This document shows positions 1 to 35,940 of a DNA stretch of 64,000 nucleotides, one piece after another. Made by a program: the position numbers and the translations under genes. This DNA comes from Phascolarctobacterium faecium DSM 14760. Lineage in GTDB: Bacteria > Bacillota > Negativicutes > Acidaminococcales > Acidaminococcaceae. The notes beneath the pieces were generated by a model. That model was given only the letters and a program-made list of their open reading frames with translations, made no database searches and was not told the DNA's origin. Numbering within the stretch: the stretch's first letter is position 1; each line of letters opens with the position of its first letter. The DNA lies in NCBI RefSeq assembly GCF_003269275.1, contig NZ_QLTS01000002.1, forward strand, positions 90,018 to 154,017, given 5' to 3'.

Positions 1-69
1 GTTTGCAGCATAGGCAGAAGCAGTTACGCCCAATGCCATTGCCATTGCAAGTACTAAAGATTTTTTCAT
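1..69 (-). CDS. SLH-domain porin, 5' end only (cut by window edge)
   Basis: This is the first 23 codons of a fourth porin of the local family. The ATG is at 67-69 and is preceded by a GGAGGAAAG-type ribosome-binding site. The encoded start (MKKSLVLAMAMALGVTASAY plus AAN) is the same signal peptide as in the porin at 462-1682, and the DNA of the two copies is nearly identical here. The rest of the gene lies off the left edge. It is expected to encode an SLH domain and barrel like its paralogs. That part is inference. Confidence 0.85.
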   Translation of the reverse strand, partial: MKKSLVLAMAMALGVTASAYAAN

Positions 70-142: not shown

Positions 143-162
143 CGAGTTACCTAGTTTCCTCT
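143..162 (-). promoter_or_regulatory. Conserved porin-leader element, copy 1
   Basis: On the minus strand this 20-mer reads AGAGGAAACTAGGTAACTCG. It lies in the 5' leader, 74 nt before the ATG at 69. GAG and CTC can close a stem, extended outward by CCGUA with UAUGG, around the loop GAAACUAGGUAA. The same element precedes all four porin genes in this window. Its function is unknown. Confidence 0.7.
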
Positions 163-216
163 ACGGCCATCCGCTTTTCAATTATTATAAACTTTAAAAA
201 CTATAAGCTTTAGTTT

Positions 217-245
217 ATTTTAGCGTGCGTTTCTAGTTTTTGCAA
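217..245 (-). promoter_or_regulatory. Promoter of porin copy 1
   Basis: Minus strand: -35 TTGCAA (240-245), 17-bp spacer, -10 TAAAAT (217-222). This gives a leader of about 140 nt. The arrangement matches the other porin promoters. Confidence 0.7.
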
Positions 246-398
246 TACTATTTTATATTTATTTAATTTAACTAAAAATCAGTAAATTCCACTTTTCTTT
301 TGCTTTTGATAATAATAAATCGCCTATATTTTAAAATCCATTTTTTCCGCTTTATGTATTCTCTTGAAAAAAATTTTCTTACTTGTTCCAAAGTATAC

Positions 399-426
399 AA
401 AAACGGCCGCATATGCGGCCGTTTTT
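399..426 (-). terminator. Intrinsic terminator of porin 462-1682
   Basis: Perfect palindrome AACGGCCGCATATGCGGCCGTT flanked by A and T runs. It lies 36 nt after the porin stop codon. Confidence 0.85.
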
Positions 427-461
427 AGTTCAGATTATTTAATTAACTGCAAAAATCTGTC

Positions 462-1682
462 TTAGAAAGTGATCGTCAGATCAGTCCACATGATTTTGTC
501 TTTATCACTGGTATCAAATTTAGATTTAGTATCATAGTAAGCAGCAGTTAAAACCATATTTTTAGCAACAGTATAATTTGCACCTACACCATAACCTTTA
601 AAACCTTGTCCGTCAAAGGTATTAGCATCAGTAGTATGAGCAATATAGGTTTGTCCGCCTAAATCATAATAGTTGGCAAACAGGCCCCAGGAACCTTTTT
701 TAGCCGCTTCCGCACCCTTGAAGGTCAACCCTACAGTCCAGCCGTCATCATCAAGGCCGTCAAGATCAACATCATGATAGCTCATATCGCCTTTAAGGTA
801 CATGGCATTCAAAGCAAAATCGCCAAACTCAGTACCAGCACCTACGAACCAGATTGCATTATCAAGTTTACTGTTTTTAGCTAAAATGTCTTTAAAGTTA
901 TAGTAACCTGCAGACGCGTTGAATTTACCGAAATCAGCAACTACAGCGCCGCCGGCATAGCTGCCGCCGGTAGTTCCGGAAACGCCCAGCTTATCGAGAT
1001 CGTCAGTTGCCTTACCAGCGGCACCAATGATCTTGATTTTATCGCCGTAAGAAACTTCCACGCCATCAGCACGATTATCATAGATATTACCGTCAGCAAA
1101 GAATGCATTGTAACGGCCGGCAGTTACATCCATACCGCCGAGTCGGCCTTCCAGATAGGCACGTTGGAAATCAGTGCTTTCGTCACCGGAATCAGTAGAC
1201 AGATCCTGCGTGTTCTGCAGCATACCGGTATATTTCCAGCCGTCATTGATCTGACCTGTGATCCAGATACGGGAACGCAAAGTGCTTTCATAATCGTTGG
1301 AAATGCTGCCTTTACCTTCATGGTTAGCATACAAAGCACGGAACTCACCTGTAATTTTAACATTATCAGATTTTTTCTCCAAAGCTGCAACACGTACGCC
1401 AAGGCTGTCCAGTTCGTCAGCAAATTCAGCTGCCAAACGATCTACGTTAGCGCCTTTGGCCATTGCTTTTGCTACTATTTGTGCCATTTCATAACGGGTC
1501 ATCAGGCGATCGCCACCAAAAGTGCCGTTGCCATAACCGTCAACGATACCAGCTGCCGCCAGCTTGTTTACGGAATCATACGCCCAATGGCCTGCCGGCA
1601 CATCGGAGAAGGGATTTGCAGCATAGGCAGAAGCAGTTACGCCCAATGCCATTGCCATTGCAAGTACTAAAGATTTTTTCAT
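462..1682 (-). CDS. SLH-domain outer-membrane porin (406 aa)
   Basis: Outer-membrane beta-barrel protein of the Negativicutes type, anchored to peptidoglycan. Residues 1-21 are a signal peptide ending AYA. Residues about 22-85 are one SLH domain (NPFSDVPAGHWAYDSVNKLA, then MTRYEMAQIVAK). Residues about 85-110 are a short coiled coil (ELDSLGVRVAALEKK). The rest is a strand-rich barrel ending WTDLTITF with a terminal Phe, as expected for BAM-dependent insertion. In this class the SLH domain is known to bind polyamine-modified peptidoglycan. The start is fixed by GAGGAGGAAAGAAAC before the ATG. It is monocistronic, with its own promoter, long leader and terminator. Its barrel is close to that of the porin at 3959-5185. 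The solute passed is unknown. Confidence 0.9.
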   Translation of the reverse strand: MKKSLVLAMAMALGVTASAYAANPFSDVPAGHWAYDSVNKLAAAGIVDGYGNGTFGGDRLMTRYEMAQIVAKAMAKGANVDRLAAEFADELDSLGVRVAALEKKSDNVKITGEFRALYANHEGKGSISNDYESTLRSRIWITGQINDGWKYTGMLQNTQDLSTDSGDESTDFQRAYLEGRLGGMDVTAGRYNAFFADGNIYDNRADGVEVSYGDKIKIIGAAGKATDDLDKLGVSGTTGGSYAGGAVVADFGKFNASAGYYNFKDILAKNSKLDNAIWFVGAGTEFGDFALNAMYLKGDMSYHDVDLDGLDDDGWTVGLTFKGAEAAKKGSWGLFANYYDLGGQTYIAHTTDANTFDGQGFKGYGVGANYTVAKNMVLTAAYYDTKSKFDTSDKDKIMWTDLTITF

Positions 1683-1760
1683 GTTTCTTTCCTCCTCGGA
1701 AATTTATTAAGCTTATAAAGACTTTGCGCTCAAATAAATAATTCCGAATCTCCTTTAGTG

Positions 1761-1780
1761 CGAGTTGCCTTGTTTCCTCT
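1761..1780 (-). promoter_or_regulatory. Conserved porin-leader element, copy 2
   Basis: Minus strand AGAGGAAACAAGGCAACTCG, 79 nt before the ATG at 1682. It differs from copy 1 only at two loop positions (T to A and T to C). The GAG/CTC closing pairs are kept. Confidence 0.7.
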
Positions 1781-1835
1781 ACTTACGGAAATCCATTTCA
1801 TTATTTTTTTGATCTAAAAGTATAAGCTTTTATAT

Positions 1836-1864
1836 ATTCTAAACACTGGCCTTCCTTTTTGCAA
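1836..1864 (-). promoter_or_regulatory. Promoter of porin 462-1682
   Basis: Minus strand: -35 TTGCAA (1859-1864), 17-bp spacer, -10 TAGAAT (1836-1841). Upstream of it, the 20-mer TTTAACTAAAAATCAGTAAA also occurs upstream of copy 1 (about 267-286), so the duplication between porins includes the promoter region. Confidence 0.75.
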
Positions 1865-2032
1865 GGTTAATTACTATTTATTTATTTTAACTAAAAATCA
1901 GTAAATTCATCATTTTATAAGCTTTTAATTATTTTTTCTGCCAATATCCTATAATTTTATTTTTTAAAATTGCATTATTACACCAAAAATTATTTTCGCC
2001 TATCCTATCTCTATTCTTATAAAATAAGGCCA

Positions 2033-2062
2033 TTGTATATAACAAATGAATTATGTTAGAAT
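2033..2062 (+). promoter_or_regulatory. Promoter of the basic exported protein gene
   Basis: -35 TTGTAT (2033-2038), 18-bp spacer, extended -10 TGTTAGAAT with the hexamer at 2057-2062. It faces away from the porin promoter at 1836-1864. Confidence 0.5.
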
Positions 2063-2094
2063 AAGTAAATTACGAATATAAAGGAGGTCCTAAA

Positions 2095-2487
2095 ATGAAA
2101 AAAACGCTACTTACAGCAGGTATCATCCTGGCAGCCTGCCTGCCTTCATTCAGCTCCGAAGCCTCAAATAATATTATTCCGACCCCCTCTCGAAACAGCT
2201 GTTATCAAAACGTCAGCAGTTATACGAACATAACCCTGGGCATGGCCGATAGGGAACGCAAAGAACAGGAAGCCTGGAACCGTGAAAAAAAACGGCGCGG
2301 CAAAGAATATGAATCCGACAAGCAAGAGCGCCGGGACCGTGAACGCTGGGAACGTCAGGAAGAGAAAAAACGCACAGAGGAAAACCGTCACCATAAAAAA
2401 GACAAAAAACGTAAGAATGACAGTGATTTTGAACGTCAGCGCAAATGGAAATTCGACCCTTCTCAATCGGGAGGAGAAGGTGACTGA
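2095..2487 (+). CDS. Small exported, highly charged protein (130 aa), function unknown
   Basis: I do not recognise a family. Residues 1-23 are a signal peptide (MKKTLLTAGIILAACLPSFS). The Cys in ILAACLP has no good lipobox, so it is probably not a lipoprotein. From residue about 50 to 120 the protein is almost entirely Lys, Arg, Glu, Asp and His (for example RERKEQEAWNREKKRRGKEY). This suggests a long charged helix or a disordered cell-envelope polyelectrolyte. AAAGGAGGT before the ATG supports the start. It is monocistronic, sits among outer-membrane genes and shares a bidirectional terminator with the next gene. A role in binding envelope polyanions is only a guess. Confidence 0.75.
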   Translation: MKKTLLTAGIILAACLPSFSSEASNNIIPTPSRNSCYQNVSSYTNITLGMADRERKEQEAWNREKKRRGKEYESDKQERRDRERWERQEEKKRTEENRHHKKDKKRKNDSDFERQRKWKFDPSQSGGEGD

Positions 2488-2501
2488 CAGCAGGAACCAA
2501 A

Positions 2502-2536
2502 AAAGGGGCAGCTGATCTATGATCAGCTGCCCCTTT
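2502..2536. terminator. Bidirectional terminator between convergent genes
   Basis: 16-bp perfect stem (AAAGGGGCAGCTGATC, loop TAT) flanked by A and T runs. It serves the plus gene ending at 2487 and the minus gene ending at 2548. Confidence 0.9.
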
Positions 2537-2547
2537 CAATAATAAGC

Positions 2548-3087
2548 CTATTTAAATTGGGTCACCTTTTTCAAATAACTGCGTACAGTCTTGGCAAATT
2601 CTTCGCTCTTCCAATCACTGCGTACAGTCAAAATCTCTTCAATTTCCATATCGTCAGAATACTTTTTAACATAATATCTGCCGGTAACTTTGTTCAAAAA
2701 TGCAAACTCACCGCTCATATCCAGCTTCAAAGTAGGCTCGCGACGGGGAAACAAAGCTTTGTCATCCAGTTTATCAAGCGACATGGCAATAACGATATCC
2801 GCACCGCTTTCACGGGCAATACGTTCCAGGTTGGCTTTACTGAAATCAGAAATATTCCTGCTGCCTACCGCCTTATCCACAACGTCCTCGGCAATCATAT
2901 CAAACTCAGGAAACTTAAACGTATCCATGATCTCTTCCATGTAAATCATACTTGCAGTAGTGTTATCTTCTACATGGTTAGCCAGCGGAACAACAGCCAA
3001 TTTTGCAGCTTCAGCCTTACCTGCTGCCGGCAGTACAAAACAAACAGCCAAAACAGCCATTAGTACAAAATTCATAATTTTTTTCAT
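2548..3087 (-). CDS. Exported protein, TolB-N/CsgG-like fold suspected (179 aa), paralog 1
   Basis: First of three paralogs in the porin cluster (others at 3288-3827 and 5512-6063). Residues 1-27 are a signal peptide ending AEA. The mature protein starts AKLAVVPLANHV. It continues with FKFPEFDMIAEDVV, then SGADIVIAMSLDKLD, and ends in a basic helix. The alternating strand-helix pattern beginning KLAVVPL and the ADIVIAM strand resemble the N-terminal domains of TolB- or CsgG-like envelope proteins. This is inference from pattern, not a search. AGAGGAGGC before the ATG supports the start. No function can be assigned. Position suggests a periplasmic or outer-membrane-associated role. Confidence 0.75.
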   Translation of the reverse strand: MKKIMNFVLMAVLAVCFVLPAAGKAEAAKLAVVPLANHVEDNTTASMIYMEEIMDTFKFPEFDMIAEDVVDKAVGSRNISDFSKANLERIARESGADIVIAMSLDKLDDKALFPRREPTLKLDMSGEFAFLNKVTGRYYVKKYSDDMEIEEILTVRSDWKSEEFAKTVRSYLKKVTQFK

Positions 3088-3232
3088 TAAAGAGCCTCCT
3101 CTATACCAGATTAGATGTCTACTCTGAACATCTTAGCACATTTTAACTGTAAAAAACAAGAGGAGATACAAATTTGCTTTTTTCACAAGAACCTTTGTTA
3201 AATTTTATTACGTTTCCTTTAAAAATATAAAT

Positions 3233-3277
3233 GATAAAAAATAACGTCAGCCTTAATGGCTGACGTTATTTTTTATC
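3233..3277 (-). terminator. Terminator of paralog 2
   Basis: 20-bp perfect inverted repeat (GATAAAAAATAACGTCAGCC, 5-nt loop) just after the stop of the gene at 3288-3827. Confidence 0.9.
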
Positions 3278-3287
3278 AAACTACAGG

Positions 3288-3827
3288 TTATTTTCCCGCA
3301 ACCTTTTTAAAGGCATTACGCACTACATTCTGCAATACTTCATGCTCCCAGTCACCGCGTACAGTAACGGCTTCCTCGATCGTTCTGGTGTCACGCAGGT
3401 CTTTATAATAATAAGCACCGGTAACAGTATTCAGCGAAGCAAATTTACCGCGCAGATCCATTTTCAAAGTTGCTTCTTTACGCTGCGGCATCCGCTTAGC
3501 ATCCAGTTTATCCAGCTGCATAGCCACTACAATGTCAGCGCCGGTAGCCTGAGCTACCTTCTCTAAAGCGGCTTTGCTGTAATCAGCAAGGCCATTTTCA
3601 CTGCCGATAGCTTCCAGCACTACATCCTCACCCAAAAGGTCAAATTCCGGATAACGGAACAGTGCCAAAGCTTCCTGCATGTAAATGGTACCGGCCAGTT
3701 CATCACCGGCAACATGATTAGCCAGCGGCACAACGGCTACTTTAGCCGCTTCAGCCTTACCGCCTAACGGCAGAGCAAAGCAAACCGTTACTAACGCCAA
3801 AAGCACATAATTAAAGAATTTTTTCAT
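3288..3827 (-). CDS. Exported protein, TolB-N/CsgG-like fold suspected (179 aa), paralog 2
   Basis: Same length and layout as the gene at 2548-3087: signal peptide ending AEA, then AKVAVVPLANHVAGDELAGT, FRYPEFDLLGEDVV, ATGADIVVAMQLDKLD, and a C-terminal strand-rich part (TLKMDLRGKFASLNTVTGAY). GAAGGAGGTAAATA before the ATG fixes the start. Its upstream region shares AAATGTG(C/T)TAAGAT with paralog 1, which suggests a common promoter inherited by duplication. It has its own terminator. Function unknown. Confidence 0.75.
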   Translation of the reverse strand: MKKFFNYVLLALVTVCFALPLGGKAEAAKVAVVPLANHVAGDELAGTIYMQEALALFRYPEFDLLGEDVVLEAIGSENGLADYSKAALEKVAQATGADIVVAMQLDKLDAKRMPQRKEATLKMDLRGKFASLNTVTGAYYYKDLRDTRTIEEAVTVRGDWEHEVLQNVVRNAFKKVAGK

Positions 3828-3903
3828 TATTTACCTCCTTCAGTAAAAAGCATCTGAAGATATCTTAACACATTTCCGAAAAATCAAAAACTGTTTTGTT
3901 GAA

Positions 3904-3931
3904 AAAAGCGGCTGCCTAAGCAGCCGCTTTT
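3904..3931 (-). terminator. Terminator of porin 3959-5185
   Basis: 12-bp stem AAAAGCGGCTGC, loop CTAA, with A/T flanks, 28 nt after the porin stop codon. Confidence 0.9.
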
Positions 3932-3958
3932 AAATTTACAGTATCTAATTCAGTTAAA

Positions 3959-5185
3959 TTAGAAAGTGAAGGTCAGGTCGGTCCAGATGATTTTGTCTTT
4001 GTCGCTGCTGTTCAATTTAGATTTAGTATCATAATAGGCAGCAGTAAAGACCATGTTTTTAGCAACAGTGTAGTTAGCACCTACGCCATAACCTTTAAAA
4101 CCTTCGCCGTCAAAGGTGTCTGCATCAGTAGTGTGTGCGATATAGGTTTGGCCACCCAAATCATAGTAGTTAGCAAACAGACCATAGGAACCAGCTTTGG
4201 CAGCCTCAGCGCCTTTCCAAGTCAAACCAACAGTGTAGCCATCATCATCAAGACCATCAAGGTCATGTCCTTGATAACTAGCATCACCTTTCAAATACAT
4301 TGCATTTAAACCAAAATCGCCGAAAGAAGTTCCAGCTCCTACAAACCAAATAGCATTGTCAATACCAGAATCTTTTTGCAGAATATCTTTAAAGTTATAG
4401 TAACCAGCAGTAGCATTTACAGCACCGAAATCAGCAGAAAGAGCGCCGCCTGCATAGTTACCACCAGTGGTTCCTTCAAGTACATATAATTTAGTAATTT
4501 CATCAGTTGCTTTACCAGCAGCCAAAGATAATTTTACTTTATCGCCATAGGAAAGTTCAACACCATCAGCACGGTTATCATAGATATTACCGTCAGCAAA
4601 GAATGCATTGTAACGACCAGCGGTAACAGCCATACCGCCTAATTTACCCTGTACATAAGCGCGTTGGAAATCAGTTTTTTCATCACCTGTATAGTCGCCT
4701 GCAAAATCCTGAATATTTTGGATCATACCGGTGTAAGACCAGTCATCGTTAACTTGTCCAGTGATCCAAATACGAGAACGTAAATCACCAACATAACTGT
4801 CAGCTACATTGCCTTTACCTTTTGAATCTGCGTAACGGAAACGAGCTTCACCAGTGATTTTTACGTTGTCAGATTTTTTCTCCAAAGCTGCAACGCGTAC
4901 GCCAAGGCTGTCCAGTTCGTCAGCAAATTCAGCTGCCAAACGGTCTACGTTTGCGCCTTTTGCCATTGCTTTTGCTACGATTTGTGCCATTTCGTAACGG
5001 GTCATCAGGCGATCGCCGCCGAAAGTGCCGTTGCCATAACCGTCAACGATACCAGCTGCTGCCAGTTTGTTTACGGAATCATATGCCCAATGACCTGCAG
5101 GTACATCGGAGAAAGGGTTTGCAGCATAGGCAGAAGCAGTTACGCCCAATGCCATTGCCATTGCTAATACTAAAGATTTTTTCAT
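3959..5185 (-). CDS. SLH-domain outer-membrane porin (408 aa)
   Basis: Same architecture as the porin at 462-1682: signal peptide, SLH domain, the coiled coil ELDSLGVRVAALEKKSDN and a barrel ending WTDLTFTF. Residues 1-112 are essentially identical to that paralog. Barrel segments near residues 190-205 and in the last third are also shared, while segments between them differ (for example TKLYVLEGTTGGNYAGG against DKLGVSGTTGGSYAGG). This points to recent duplication with patchy divergence, probably in surface loops. GAGGAGGAATAACA before the ATG fixes the start. It has its own promoter and terminator. Confidence 0.9.
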   Translation of the reverse strand: MKKSLVLAMAMALGVTASAYAANPFSDVPAGHWAYDSVNKLAAAGIVDGYGNGTFGGDRLMTRYEMAQIVAKAMAKGANVDRLAAEFADELDSLGVRVAALEKKSDNVKITGEARFRYADSKGKGNVADSYVGDLRSRIWITGQVNDDWSYTGMIQNIQDFAGDYTGDEKTDFQRAYVQGKLGGMAVTAGRYNAFFADGNIYDNRADGVELSYGDKVKLSLAAGKATDEITKLYVLEGTTGGNYAGGALSADFGAVNATAGYYNFKDILQKDSGIDNAIWFVGAGTSFGDFGLNAMYLKGDASYQGHDLDGLDDDGYTVGLTWKGAEAAKAGSYGLFANYYDLGGQTYIAHTTDADTFDGEGFKGYGVGANYTVAKNMVFTAAYYDTKSKLNSSDKDKIIWTDLTFTF

Positions 5186-5260
5186 TGTTATTCCTCCTCA
5201 GGAAATTATTAAGTTTATAATTTTGCTGTTTTAGAATAACTTCTTTAGCAAGCATTGCGG

Positions 5261-5280
5261 CGAGTTGCCTTGTTTCCTCT
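5261..5280 (-). promoter_or_regulatory. Conserved porin-leader element, copy 3
   Basis: Minus strand AGAGGAAACAAGGCAACTCG, 76 nt before the ATG at 5185. Outer flanks UUGC and GCAA can extend the GAG/CTC stem. They differ in sequence from the flanks of copy 1 but keep pairing. Confidence 0.7.
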
Positions 5281-5333
5281 GCAAATCCAACTATAGAGAT
5301 TATTCCTTAATCAACTGATTATAAACTTAATTT

Positions 5334-5362
5334 ACTTTACCGCGTTTTTACGATTTTGACAA
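5334..5362 (-). promoter_or_regulatory. Promoter of porin 3959-5185
   Basis: Minus strand: -35 TTGTCA (5357-5362), 17-bp spacer, -10 TAAAGT (5334-5339). Confidence 0.7.
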
Positions 5363-5470
5363 GTATTTTTTATTTTTATGCAGTAAAAATGTAATCTGAT
5401 TTTCTTTTCATCTTTTATTATGCAATTTTATAAATTATAATTATAAATCGAACTTATAAATATAATAATT

Positions 5471-5501
5471 AAAACCGGCAATCATAAAGATTGCCGGTTT
5501 T
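5471..5501 (-). terminator. Terminator of paralog 3
   Basis: 12-bp stem AAAACCGGCAAT with a 7-nt loop. It lies just after the stop of the gene at 5512-6063. Confidence 0.9.
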
Positions 5502-5511
5502 AGAAAAAATA

Positions 5512-6063
5512 TTAAAATTTAGCAACTTTTTTCAGTTCGCGAATCACATGGTTACGGAATTCATTGTGTTCATAATCAGTACGGGCGATAACAGGATATT
5601 CAACCAGTTCCTCATCGTTAATACGGTCTTTTGTGACCTTCCCGGTAATGCCGTTGACATACATGATACGGGCTTTGATTTTAAATTTATAATAATCTTC
5701 AATCATACCCATCTGCGGCTCCAGGCTCAGTTCATCCAAACTCATCATCAATGCCATATCAGCGCCTGTTTTAGCCATGATACGTTTGAGCATTGCTTCG
5801 TCAGGGCCATTTTTGCCAACAACAGCATAATTTTCTTCCTTCAAAGCTTTGTCAAGCACAGCATCATCAACCATATCAAATTCGGGGAATTTGAAATAAT
5901 CCATACATTCATTAAAGAAAACCTGACCGGAAAGCTCATCATCAGCTACATTATTCGCCAGCGGCAGAATAGCTATTTTAGCGGCTTCGGCTTTACCGAA
6001 AACGGGGACAGTAAAACCAATCACAACTAAAGCCAACAATAAATAGCGCAGAATATTTTTCAT
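5512..6063 (-). CDS. Exported protein, TolB-N/CsgG-like fold suspected (183 aa), paralog 3
   Basis: Divergent third paralog of the genes at 2548 and 3288. Signal peptide MKNILRYLLLALVVIGFTVP ending AEA, then AAKIAILPLANNVADDELSG, YFKFPEFDMVDDAVL, KTGADMALMMSLDELS, and a strand-rich C-terminal part (YVNGITGKVTKD). I chose ATG 6063 because AAGGAGGT lies 9 nt before it. A TTG at 6081 would sit on top of that ribosome-binding site. It is monocistronic between two porins. Function unknown; the recurrent pairing with porins suggests an envelope role. Confidence 0.75.
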   Translation of the reverse strand: MKNILRYLLLALVVIGFTVPVFGKAEAAKIAILPLANNVADDELSGQVFFNECMDYFKFPEFDMVDDAVLDKALKEENYAVVGKNGPDEAMLKRIMAKTGADMALMMSLDELSLEPQMGMIEDYYKFKIKARIMYVNGITGKVTKDRINDEELVEYPVIARTDYEHNEFRNHVIRELKKVAKF

Positions 6064-6205
6064 CGATATAACCTCCTTCAAATAACTATCAATTATAAGT
6101 TATTTTATCATAAAACAAACAAAAAAAATAGAGTCAAAGCAGATAATATGACAATTATTATAATAAAGTTTGAATGATACATTCAATGATTTTAATCCTA
6201 AGATA

Positions 6206-6234
6206 TAAAAAAGGGCGATCTTAAGATCGCCCTT
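6206..6234 (-). terminator. Terminator of porin 6256-7467
   Basis: Perfect palindrome AAGGGCGATCTTAAGATCGC plus CCTT, followed on the minus strand by a T run. Confidence 0.9.
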
Positions 6235-6255
6235 GAAGAAGCAGGTTCACTAAAA

Positions 6256-7467
6256 TTAGAAAGTGAAGACAACTTCAGACCAAATGGTCTTGTCATTTTT
6301 ATCAGTTTCTTTTGCATCAAAATCAGAGTACTCAACAGCTGCAACGATATTTTTAGCGAAAGCGTAGTTTACGCCCAGCATATAACCTTTGAAACCGCCT
6401 TCTTTATTGAAATCGTTAGCTAAATCGGTATTCATGCCATGATGAATATAAGTGCCAGCGCCCTGGTCATAGTATTTAGCATAAACGCCATAAGTACCAG
6501 CTTTAGCTGCTTTAGCGCCTTTATATGCCAAACCAATTACATAACCATCTTCATCAACAGACATAGTATTAACTTTATCTACATCAGATTTTAAATAAGT
6601 AGCATCAACTGTGAAGTCACCAAATTTGTAGTCAGCGCCTACATACCAGATTTTATCATCTTGGCCAAGTTTAACAACTTCGTCAGCTTTGACATAACCA
6701 GCGTTCAAGCCCAATTTGCCGATTTCGCCGCCCAAAGTAGCTGCCATGTATTTATCAGCTTTTTTACTATTATCTCCACTGGAGATTTTGCCATATTGGA
6801 AGCCGACTTTCAAATCTTTACCAAAACCAAGTTTTACAGCATCGGTACGATGGCTGAGGATATTGCCAACGCCCAAGCCCAATGCAGTGTTATTACGGCC
6901 AGCTTCTACTTTAACGCCACCGATACGGCCGGTAACGAATGCGCGTTGGAATTCAGTTTTCTCATCGCCTTCATCGTTGAGCAAATCTTGTTCGTTCTGC
7001 AACATGCCAACATATTTCCAGTCTTCGTTTATTTGGCCGTTGAGCCAGATACGAGAACGCAGAGTGCTAGTAGCATTAGTACCATTTAAGTTAGTATGTT
7101 TGTCATAAGATTGATACATAGCACGGATTTGAGCGTTGATTTTAACGTTGTCGGATTTTTTCTCCAAAGCTGCAACGCGAACACCAAGGCTGTCCAGTTC
7201 GTCAGCAAATTCAGCTGCCAAACGGTCTACGTTAGCGCCTTTTGCCATTGCTTTAGCTACGATTTGAGCCATTTCGTAACGGGTCATCAGACGATCGCCA
7301 CCGAAAGTGCCGTTGCCATAACCGTCAACGATATCAGCTGCTGCCAGTTTGTTTACGGAATCATATGCCCAATGACCTGCAGGTACATCGGAGAAGGGGT
7401 TTGCAGCATAGGCAGAAGCAGTTACACCCAAAGCCATAGCCATTGCTAATACTAAAGATTTTTTCAT
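6256..7467 (-). CDS. SLH-domain outer-membrane porin, divergent barrel (403 aa)
   Basis: The signal peptide, SLH domain and coiled coil (residues 1-110) match the other porins almost exactly; one change is AADIVDGYG for AAGIVDGYG. The barrel is clearly different (NAQIRAMYQSYDKHTNLNGT near residue 115, end WSEVVFTF). It shares only scattered strand motifs with the paralogs, such as STLRSRIWLNGQINEDWKY. ATG 7467 is chosen because GGAGGAAATAAC precedes it and it begins the family signal peptide. An in-frame extension to 7545 would run through the leader. A barrel this different on a conserved anchor suggests a different substrate or surface identity. Confidence 0.9.
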   Translation of the reverse strand: MKKSLVLAMAMALGVTASAYAANPFSDVPAGHWAYDSVNKLAAADIVDGYGNGTFGGDRLMTRYEMAQIVAKAMAKGANVDRLAAEFADELDSLGVRVAALEKKSDNVKINAQIRAMYQSYDKHTNLNGTNATSTLRSRIWLNGQINEDWKYVGMLQNEQDLLNDEGDEKTEFQRAFVTGRIGGVKVEAGRNNTALGLGVGNILSHRTDAVKLGFGKDLKVGFQYGKISSGDNSKKADKYMAATLGGEIGKLGLNAGYVKADEVVKLGQDDKIWYVGADYKFGDFTVDATYLKSDVDKVNTMSVDEDGYVIGLAYKGAKAAKAGTYGVYAKYYDQGAGTYIHHGMNTDLANDFNKEGGFKGYMLGVNYAFAKNIVAAVEYSDFDAKETDKNDKTIWSEVVFTF

Positions 7468-7546
7468 TGTTATTTCCTCCTTCGGAAATGTTTTATTTTT
7501 ATAAAACGTCCCGGAAAGGAATCTGTGCGCATCAGTTTGCTTCATG

Positions 7547-7566
7547 CGAGTTACCTAGTTTCCTCT
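7547..7566 (-). promoter_or_regulatory. Conserved porin-leader element, copy 4
   Basis: Minus strand AGAGGAAACTAGGTAACTCG, 80 nt before the ATG at 7467. An outer helix GUGCGC/GCGCAC, absent from the other copies, can enclose it. Confidence 0.7.
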
Positions 7567-7662
7567 ACTCGGCGCACTGCTTTGCTTCGATACTTTCCTC
7601 AACGCATTATAAACAGGTTAAAAAACAATTATTATCCTATATATAATTCATTGTTTGGACAT

Positions 7663-7691
7663 ATTTTACATTATTTTCAGAATTATTGCAA
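7663..7691 (-). promoter_or_regulatory. Promoter of porin 6256-7467
   Basis: Minus strand: -35 TTGCAA (7686-7691), 17-bp spacer, -10 TAAAAT (7663-7668), identical in form to copy 1. A TATAAT at 7606-7611 without a good -35 is an alternative that would place the start nearer the leader element. Confidence 0.6.
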
Positions 7692-27938: not shown

Positions 27939-27952
27939 GGCTCGCGCTTACG

Positions 27953-28035
27953 CCACTTCCCTACGCCGGCATTACCCGGAAATCAGGTTCTAAGGGTCGG
28001 CCTTGCGGCCTCTCAGCATAATGCGCCCCCAGTGG
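27953..28035 (-). ncRNA. TPP riboswitch (THI element)
   Basis: The minus strand contains the TPP aptamer signatures CTGAGAGG (the CUGAGA pyrimidine-sensing loop), ACCCTTAGAACCTGAT and CCGGGTAATGCCGGCGTAGG. P1 is closed by CCACT (28031-28035) and AGTGG (27953-27957). A terminator follows before thiC, so binding of thiamine diphosphate should stop transcription. Confidence 0.97.
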
Positions 28036-28057
28036 ATCGACTTATGATATTAAATTA

Positions 28058-35764: not shown

Positions 35765-35940
35765 AGTTCAATCAGAACCGGCCCTGTTCAAGCTTTAACT
35801 CCACAGGGCGGTGAAATTGCATTAGATTATGCCTTGTTGTCGACATAGCCTGTTCAAACCTGCTCATGGTGTCTCCACCACTCCGCGGCAGCAATCCATA
35901 TCCCTGTGGTAGCCTCACCTACCAGAATATCCAGCTCCTA
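35765..35940 (-). ncRNA. M-box (ykoK) magnesium riboswitch
   Basis: The minus strand has the M-box core GGTAGGTGAGGCTACC, then GGATATGGATTGCTGCCGC, then ATGTCGACAACAAGGCAT and GGAGTTAAAGCTTGAACAGG. These match the order of the B. subtilis ykoK leader. A terminator follows and then mgtA. Mg2+ binding should favour termination. The boundaries are approximate. Confidence 0.93.

Follow-up and report, generated by a model that had tools for sequence, protein, structure and literature searches.

A conserved hairpin in the leaders of SLH porin genes of Negativicutes and its probable structural kinship to cyanobacterial Yfr2

Why does one 20-nucleotide (nt) sequence stand in front of four SLH porin genes of Phascolarctobacterium faecium DSM 14760? 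The window, i.e., the whole stretch of DNA that was analysed (64,000 nt of contig NZ_QLTS01000002.1), holds four copies of this 20-mer, all on the minus strand, which the original prediction took for an RNA element in the porin leaders. The present study revealed that the 20-mer is the tip of a structured cis RNA hairpin, which is real and more general than first proposed, and it can be said with high confidence that this RNA element has a structural relative in Yfr2 (Cyano-1, RF01701), a small RNA (sRNA) of cyanobacteria.

The 20-mer was recovered exactly at all four sites, against a chance expectation of 0.02 from shuffles, and no fifth copy was found in the window even with up to three mismatches allowed. 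All four sites lie on the coding strand, 5' of the start codons of the porin genes, with 74, 79, 76, and 80 nt between the 3' end of the element and the A of the ATG (69, 1682, 5185, and 7467, respectively), confirming the coordinates and the distance of 74-80 nt given originally. Moreover, a covariance model built from 90 leaders (R2), run over the whole window with filters off, returned the same four sites at 33-44 bits and no other match above 10 bits. The tips and the hairpins predicted around them are as follows.

143-162, minus strand: copy 1 hairpin tip (closing stem, 12-nt loop, and bulge); exact match, R2 35.3 bits
110-193, minus strand: copy 1 predicted long hairpin; minimum-energy fold -30.2 kcal/mol, z -4.95
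1761-1780, minus strand: copy 2 hairpin tip; exact match, R2 44.0 bits
1730-1812, minus strand: copy 2 predicted long hairpin; fold -22.2 kcal/mol, z -4.09
5261-5280, minus strand: copy 3 hairpin tip; exact match, R2 33.0 bits
5225-5315, minus strand: copy 3 predicted long hairpin; fold -23.7 kcal/mol, z -2.94
7547-7566, minus strand: copy 4 hairpin tip; exact match, R2 33.2 bits
7525-7577, minus strand: copy 4 GUGCGC/GCGCAC arms flanking the tip, long stem not confidently predicted; fold z 0.05

The minimum-energy folds of copies 1-3 each consist of a single long hairpin with the 12-nt loop at its tip. The flank pairings proposed earlier, CCGUA/UAUGG in copy 1 and UUGC/GCAA in copy 3, are contained in these folds; the third proposal held only in part, as the GUGCGC and GCGCAC arms of copy 4 (7572-7577 and 7525-7530) are present but enclose a large internal loop.

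Does this hairpin reflect selection on an RNA? In 90 distinct sequences from the class Negativicutes, the loop is 12 nt long, GAAACNNGGNNA, with 8 of its 12 bases invariant, and is closed by 3 base pairs (bp), below which most sequences leave a single base unpaired on the 3' side before pairing resumes for 3-4 bp; this bulge is absent from some divergent copies (e.g., L349 and L358). Below the tip follows a long imperfect stem with little sequence conservation. The covariation score of the 90 sequences was 0.343, compared with 0.127 (sd 0.012) in shuffled alignments and at most 0.122 when the strands were slid against each other (earlier score 0.381, versus 0.134 and at most 0.128), all on counts that ignore phylogeny, the statistic not being tree-aware. 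For example, one stem pair is C-G in 40 and U-A in 37 of the 90 sequences. A search using the loop only, blind to the stem, found the closing stem fully paired (3/3) at 102 of 110 class sites, with GAG/CUC in 93, GUG/CAC in 5, and AAG/CUU in 4, in agreement with the pairing of GAG and CTC ends first suggested. Furthermore, the tip was apical in 79 of the 90 minimum-energy folds, compared with 24% when the flanks were shuffled, and the flanking stems were more stable than shuffles (median z -2.3). The size of the covariation, the slid-strand control, and the three stem types make a reading by chance or duplication unlikely, and thereby support the original proposal of an RNA that keeps its loop while its stems covary, in distant genomes too. 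A conserved loop on a stem that is free in sequence is, judged from the sequence pattern, the signature of a binding site.

The same evidence bears on whether the element is an RNA at all. The window porins are recent duplicates with similar leaders, and a constant 20-mer 3' of a promoter could be an operator, so that a DNA operator, or the residue of recent duplication or gene conversion among the porin loci, might account for the copies. Yet compensatory stem changes are unexpected for an operator, the flanks are unrelated between genera, and the same tip occurs in the transcribed Yfr2 RNAs, leaving this explanation largely refuted and barely credible. Duplication, which had been named as a possible source of part of the likeness, cannot account for it, since dozens of genera keep the loop between flanks that bear no relation to one another. 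An upstream reading frame was also considered and rejected, as variation in the loop is not confined to one codon position and the variant in the window contains TAA.

How far does the element extend within the class? A pattern with free positions yielded 47 sites in 20 of 61 relatives, versus none for the reversed-pattern control, and all sites with enough downstream sequence were on the coding strand, about 45-100 nt 5' of an SLH porin start. At a threshold of E <= 0.01, a covariance model from 41 leaders (R1) matched 187 of 301 class genomes and 64 of 97 genera, so the element does precede porins beyond this locus, as the original prediction required; nearly all of the 40 R1 places inspected across several families were 5' of SLH porins. 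The Cyano-1 model added one copy 5' of a TonB-dependent receptor (L287) and one 5' of a 309-amino-acid (aa) non-SLH secreted protein that is barrel-like by eye only (L283). Porins and elements were further compared in 12 genomes, including six without an R1 match, whose matchless leaders were read with filters off; by our own count, the element stands before about 35 of the 47 SLH porin genes, and thus not before every one of them. Several of the copies found late were divergent, with an AAG/CUU closing stem or the loop GAAACGUGGAUA, and some minor porin paralogues have an unrelated leader instead. Two such minor SLH porin paralogues without the element, L367 (G022) and L369 (G016), share a leader ending in AGGAGTGTG before the start codon. 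At a further locus (L051, G035:C6), the element is followed by mid-porin sequence and not by a start, whereas a normal start does follow another copy at a distance of 1.1 kb; this arrangement may be a product of recombination or an assembly artefact.

Beyond the class, the same hairpin heads outer-membrane protein genes in many distantly related double-membraned Firmicutes. R2 was run over 200 genomes of the phylum and matched 32 of them. Among the 29 new loci read, 25 lie before signal-peptide genes with porin-like products, two of these in the same class, and the remaining 4 are probably chance matches. The 23 out-of-class loci encode 8 SLH porins and 15 other secreted proteins, of which several match Porin_4 or related families and several have no family match. 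The element is thus not limited to SLH porins, as it had at first appeared to be, but also precedes the TonB receptor, the non-SLH secreted protein, and these other putative barrels. For two downstream proteins without a family match, the predicted structures were of low confidence (predicted local distance difference test 27.5 and 35.2), with too few related sequences, and a search of solved structures for such proteins gave no result. In a control with 198 Bacteroidota genomes, 10 of them gave a total of 10 matches; every match lay within a reading frame, and no outer-membrane gene followed any of them, indicating that the E-values are optimistic by about five-fold; gene context separates true from false matches. 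In addition, a broad genome scan with GTGGAAACAAGGNAACAC returned mostly Prochlorococcus among the matches listed; a Nitrospirota match lay inside reading frames and was taken as chance. A contig assigned to a Rhodobiaceae metagenome-assembled genome (L101, PAAM01000015.1) contains a Prochlorococcus-type Yfr2 and is probably a contaminant.

Is the element a known regulator? A known riboswitch or ribosomal-protein leader family was rejected, no Rfam 15 match at gathering falling on the element; the earlier statement that it is no recognised riboswitch stands in this respect, although a known relative does exist in the Cyano-1/Yfr2 hairpin. An intrinsic-termination attenuator was rejected, as a U-tract directly follows the stem in only 2 of 79 leaders, and sequestration of the Shine-Dalgarno site was not supported (mean unpaired 0.47 versus 0.42 in shuffles), some leaders looking as if they sequester it, no more often than shuffles do. 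Without such sequestration and without a terminator tail, the classic expression platform is absent. A very small metabolite or ion riboswitch would suit the invariant loop, the covarying stems, and the position in 5' leaders of one functional gene group; it would, however, be smaller than nearly all known aptamers, would lack the platform, and fits poorly with free-standing sRNAs bearing the same tip, and is accordingly very unlikely. A uniform distance to the promoter was likewise rejected, a simple consensus scan giving a broad distribution across the leaders. In comparison with CsrA/RsmA sites (ANGGA in a loop), the GGA never varies, yet part of it lies in the closing stem, and leaders with GAG or GUG stems lack the initial A of ANGGA; one study found no RsmA/RsmE homologues in cyanobacteria (PMC2662882).

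The relative was met through Cyano-1 matches below threshold that coincide exactly with the element. Run over the 61 genomes, the Cyano-1 model picks out the leaders with E-values down to 2.5e-5 per genome and also recovered leaders that the exact pattern had missed. Conversely, R1, trained on leaders only, gave 24 matches in 69 Cyanobacteriota genomes, of which 21 coincide with Cyano-1 matches above gathering (for four of these, the overlap was read from the loci), two, among the weakest, fall on nothing recognisable, and the remaining one is itself a leader. The last comes from a different, small Cyanobacteriota class (G338; a class represented by 18 genomes), where a hairpin GAG-GAAACUCGGAAA-CUC stands about 100 nt 5' of an SLH-domain protein (PF00395, E=2.2e-9) that continues, after a sequence gap, with apparent coiled-coil and barrel sequence. 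An association of the element with the cyanobacterial SLH porins (OprB) was rejected, since a comparison of coordinates in the same genomes showed that R1 matches and OprB genes are not adjacent.

The two models thus recognise each other reciprocally, and both RNAs share the 12-nt loop GAAAC(A/C)..GG..A, the 3-bp closing stem, the 1-nt bulge on the 3' side, a 3-bp helix, internal loops, and a long variable stem, as well as several copies per genome; the interruption of the long stem at position 4 from the loop, a feature of Yfr2 (PMC2662882), is found in the leaders as well. They differ in that the leaders stand in cis before outer-membrane protein genes, whereas Yfr2 is a free-standing sRNA at unconserved loci, in the closing stem (mostly GAG/CUC in the leaders, GUG/CAC in Yfr2), and in that the leaders have no Yfr1-complementary 5' tail and score under the Rfam cut-off. 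The leaders are not classed as Cyano-1 members because, when tested, they showed neither a score above the cut-off nor the 5' motif nor the free-standing nature. The original Cyano-1 report covered Cyanobacteria and marine samples only (PMC2864571), and none of the papers searched names Yfr2 together with Firmicutes. In cyanobacteria, Yfr2 sequesters Yfr1 via its 5' tail, and porins and TonB transporters are among the targets validated or predicted for Yfr1 (PMC6778093, PMC6974561), as they are among those predicted in Nostoc (PMC6974561). As the leaders lack this 5' tail, the two groups have in common the loop and a connection with the outer membrane.

What, then, might the hairpin do? The best explanation, to which we assign a probability of roughly 0.6, is a hairpin near the 5' end of outer-membrane protein mRNAs that acts in cis and is read through its loop by a conserved factor. 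The rod-like stem would fold in the cell so as to present the 12-nt loop to this trans-acting factor, most likely an RNA-binding protein, which would control the turnover or translation of all these mRNAs together, in whichever direction, the loop being their common address tag. The cyanobacterial sRNAs that bear this tip are free and have a Yfr1-pairing 5' tail; there the tip may be a decoy for the same factor. The occurrence of one loop on outer-membrane protein mRNAs and on abundant free sRNAs favours a conserved reader; that this reader is a dedicated protein is put at even odds. A wider proposal, with the odds against it, is that of an ancient outer-membrane regulon of double-membraned Terrabacteria, in which both the loop and its reader would predate the split of Firmicutes and Cyanobacteria and Yfr2 RNAs would be detached porin leaders serving as decoys in trans.

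The hairpin of the E. coli ompA 5' untranslated region offers a comparison confined to function, as it is likewise a structured leader on the mRNA of an abundant outer-membrane protein; unlike the present hairpin, it is not known to share a sequence element with other genes or to carry a comparable conserved loop. The ompA 5' stem-loop protects its mRNA from 5'-end-dependent decay. A passive stabiliser of this sort, shielding abundant porin mRNAs with no reader of the loop, would agree with long stems of little sequence conservation, with a position near the 5' end in three of the four window copies if the putative promoters (listed below) are correct, and with a hairpin that does not systematically engage the Shine-Dalgarno site. 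It would also agree with Yfr2, which is described as very stable (PMC6778093). A passive stem, however, needs no fixed 12-nt loop; here 8 of the 12 bases are invariant in 90 sequences, and the same loop recurs in another phylum, so that this explanation appears unlikely.

Control by sRNAs such as MicA, RybB, and MicF, or the cyanobacterial Yfr1, resembles the proposed system in that one signal addresses many outer-membrane protein mRNAs, the difference being that the signal here is a structured cis element in each mRNA and not complementarity to one sRNA. The exposed loop could itself be seized by a base-pairing sRNA, outer-membrane protein mRNAs being classic targets of sRNAs and Yfr1 controlling porins in cyanobacteria (PMC6778093, PMC6974561). 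Against this, the pattern of invariant and free bases in GAAACNNGGNNA is ill suited to continuous pairing, the partner of Yfr1 in Yfr2 is the 5' tail, absent from the leaders, and not the loop, and the same seed would have to be kept across phyla, which renders such a target site quite improbable.

Several observations count against a conserved hairpin read by a shared factor, or against its tie to Yfr2. In the window, the minimum-energy fold of copy 4 is without the long tip-bearing hairpin, and about a quarter of the SLH porins in the 12 genomes have no recognisable copy. No Rfam 15 match above gathering was obtained in any leader examined, and the Cyano-1 model over 301 genomes reached 38.8 bits at best, with none above its gathering cut-off of 41 bits. 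The Yfr1-pairing 5' motif of Yfr2 is absent, the best leader matches to TGTGTGAGGAG being no better than those in shuffled leaders; the kinship is thus limited to the hairpin, and convergence on one reader could explain it. Moreover, promoter distances vary among the leaders, so that the hairpin need not lie exactly at the 5' end of the transcript. Several out-of-class downstream proteins match no family and are only presumed to be barrels. Finally, no candidate reader was identified.

Within the window, the genes and putative promoters that belong to the four copies are the following.

1-69, minus strand: copy 1 SLH porin gene, start only (runs off the window)
217-245, minus strand: copy 1 putative promoter, TTGCAA-17-TAAAAT; consensus scan only
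462-1682, minus strand: copy 2 SLH porin gene, 406 aa; SLH PF00395, E=8.6e-14
1836-1864, minus strand: copy 2 putative promoter; consensus scan only
3959-5185, minus strand: copy 3 SLH porin gene, 408 aa; N-terminus near-identical to that of the copy 2 porin
5334-5362, minus strand: copy 3 putative promoter; consensus scan only
6256-7467, minus strand: copy 4 SLH porin gene
7663-7691, minus strand: copy 4 putative promoter; consensus scan only

The putative -10 boxes end (217, 1836, 5334, and 7663) 55, 56, 54, and 97 nt 5' of the element in copies 1-4, in line with the spacing of about 55 nt reported earlier for three copies; the 27 promoter-like sites in the region are not above shuffles (21.3, sd 4.8). 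To the left of the window (L009/L356, C2 at about 89.8-90.0 kb), the signal peptide of the copy 1 porin is followed by a run of N (an assembly gap) and then by another porin start, the copy 1 gene being incomplete in the assembly. Three paralogous secreted proteins of about 180 aa (2548-3087, 3288-3827, and 5512-6063, minus strand), with a signal peptide and a AKLAVVPLANHV-like motif, are encoded in between the porins. Two riboswitches in the window exceed the Rfam cut-off, an M-box (magnesium) at 35776-35933 and a TPP riboswitch at 27941-28040 (both minus strand).

The OmpM porins of double-membraned Firmicutes both tether and permeabilise the outer membrane (PMC10628300), and their regulation seems to be little described; control through the leader or the mRNA of OmpM is not mentioned in that study. 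The hairpin would add a widespread, apparently hitherto undescribed RNA control of the outer membrane. It extends the Yfr2 RNA shape beyond cyanobacteria and offers a new way to learn what the Yfr2 loop does, a loop which is conserved in cyanobacteria and for which no binding partner was found in the literature consulted on Yfr2. A shared RNA tag on outer-membrane protein mRNAs also provides a direct handle for finding its reader. If that reader is shared, it would bear on the question of an ancestral outer membrane, and ancestral control of it, in Firmicutes and Cyanobacteria.

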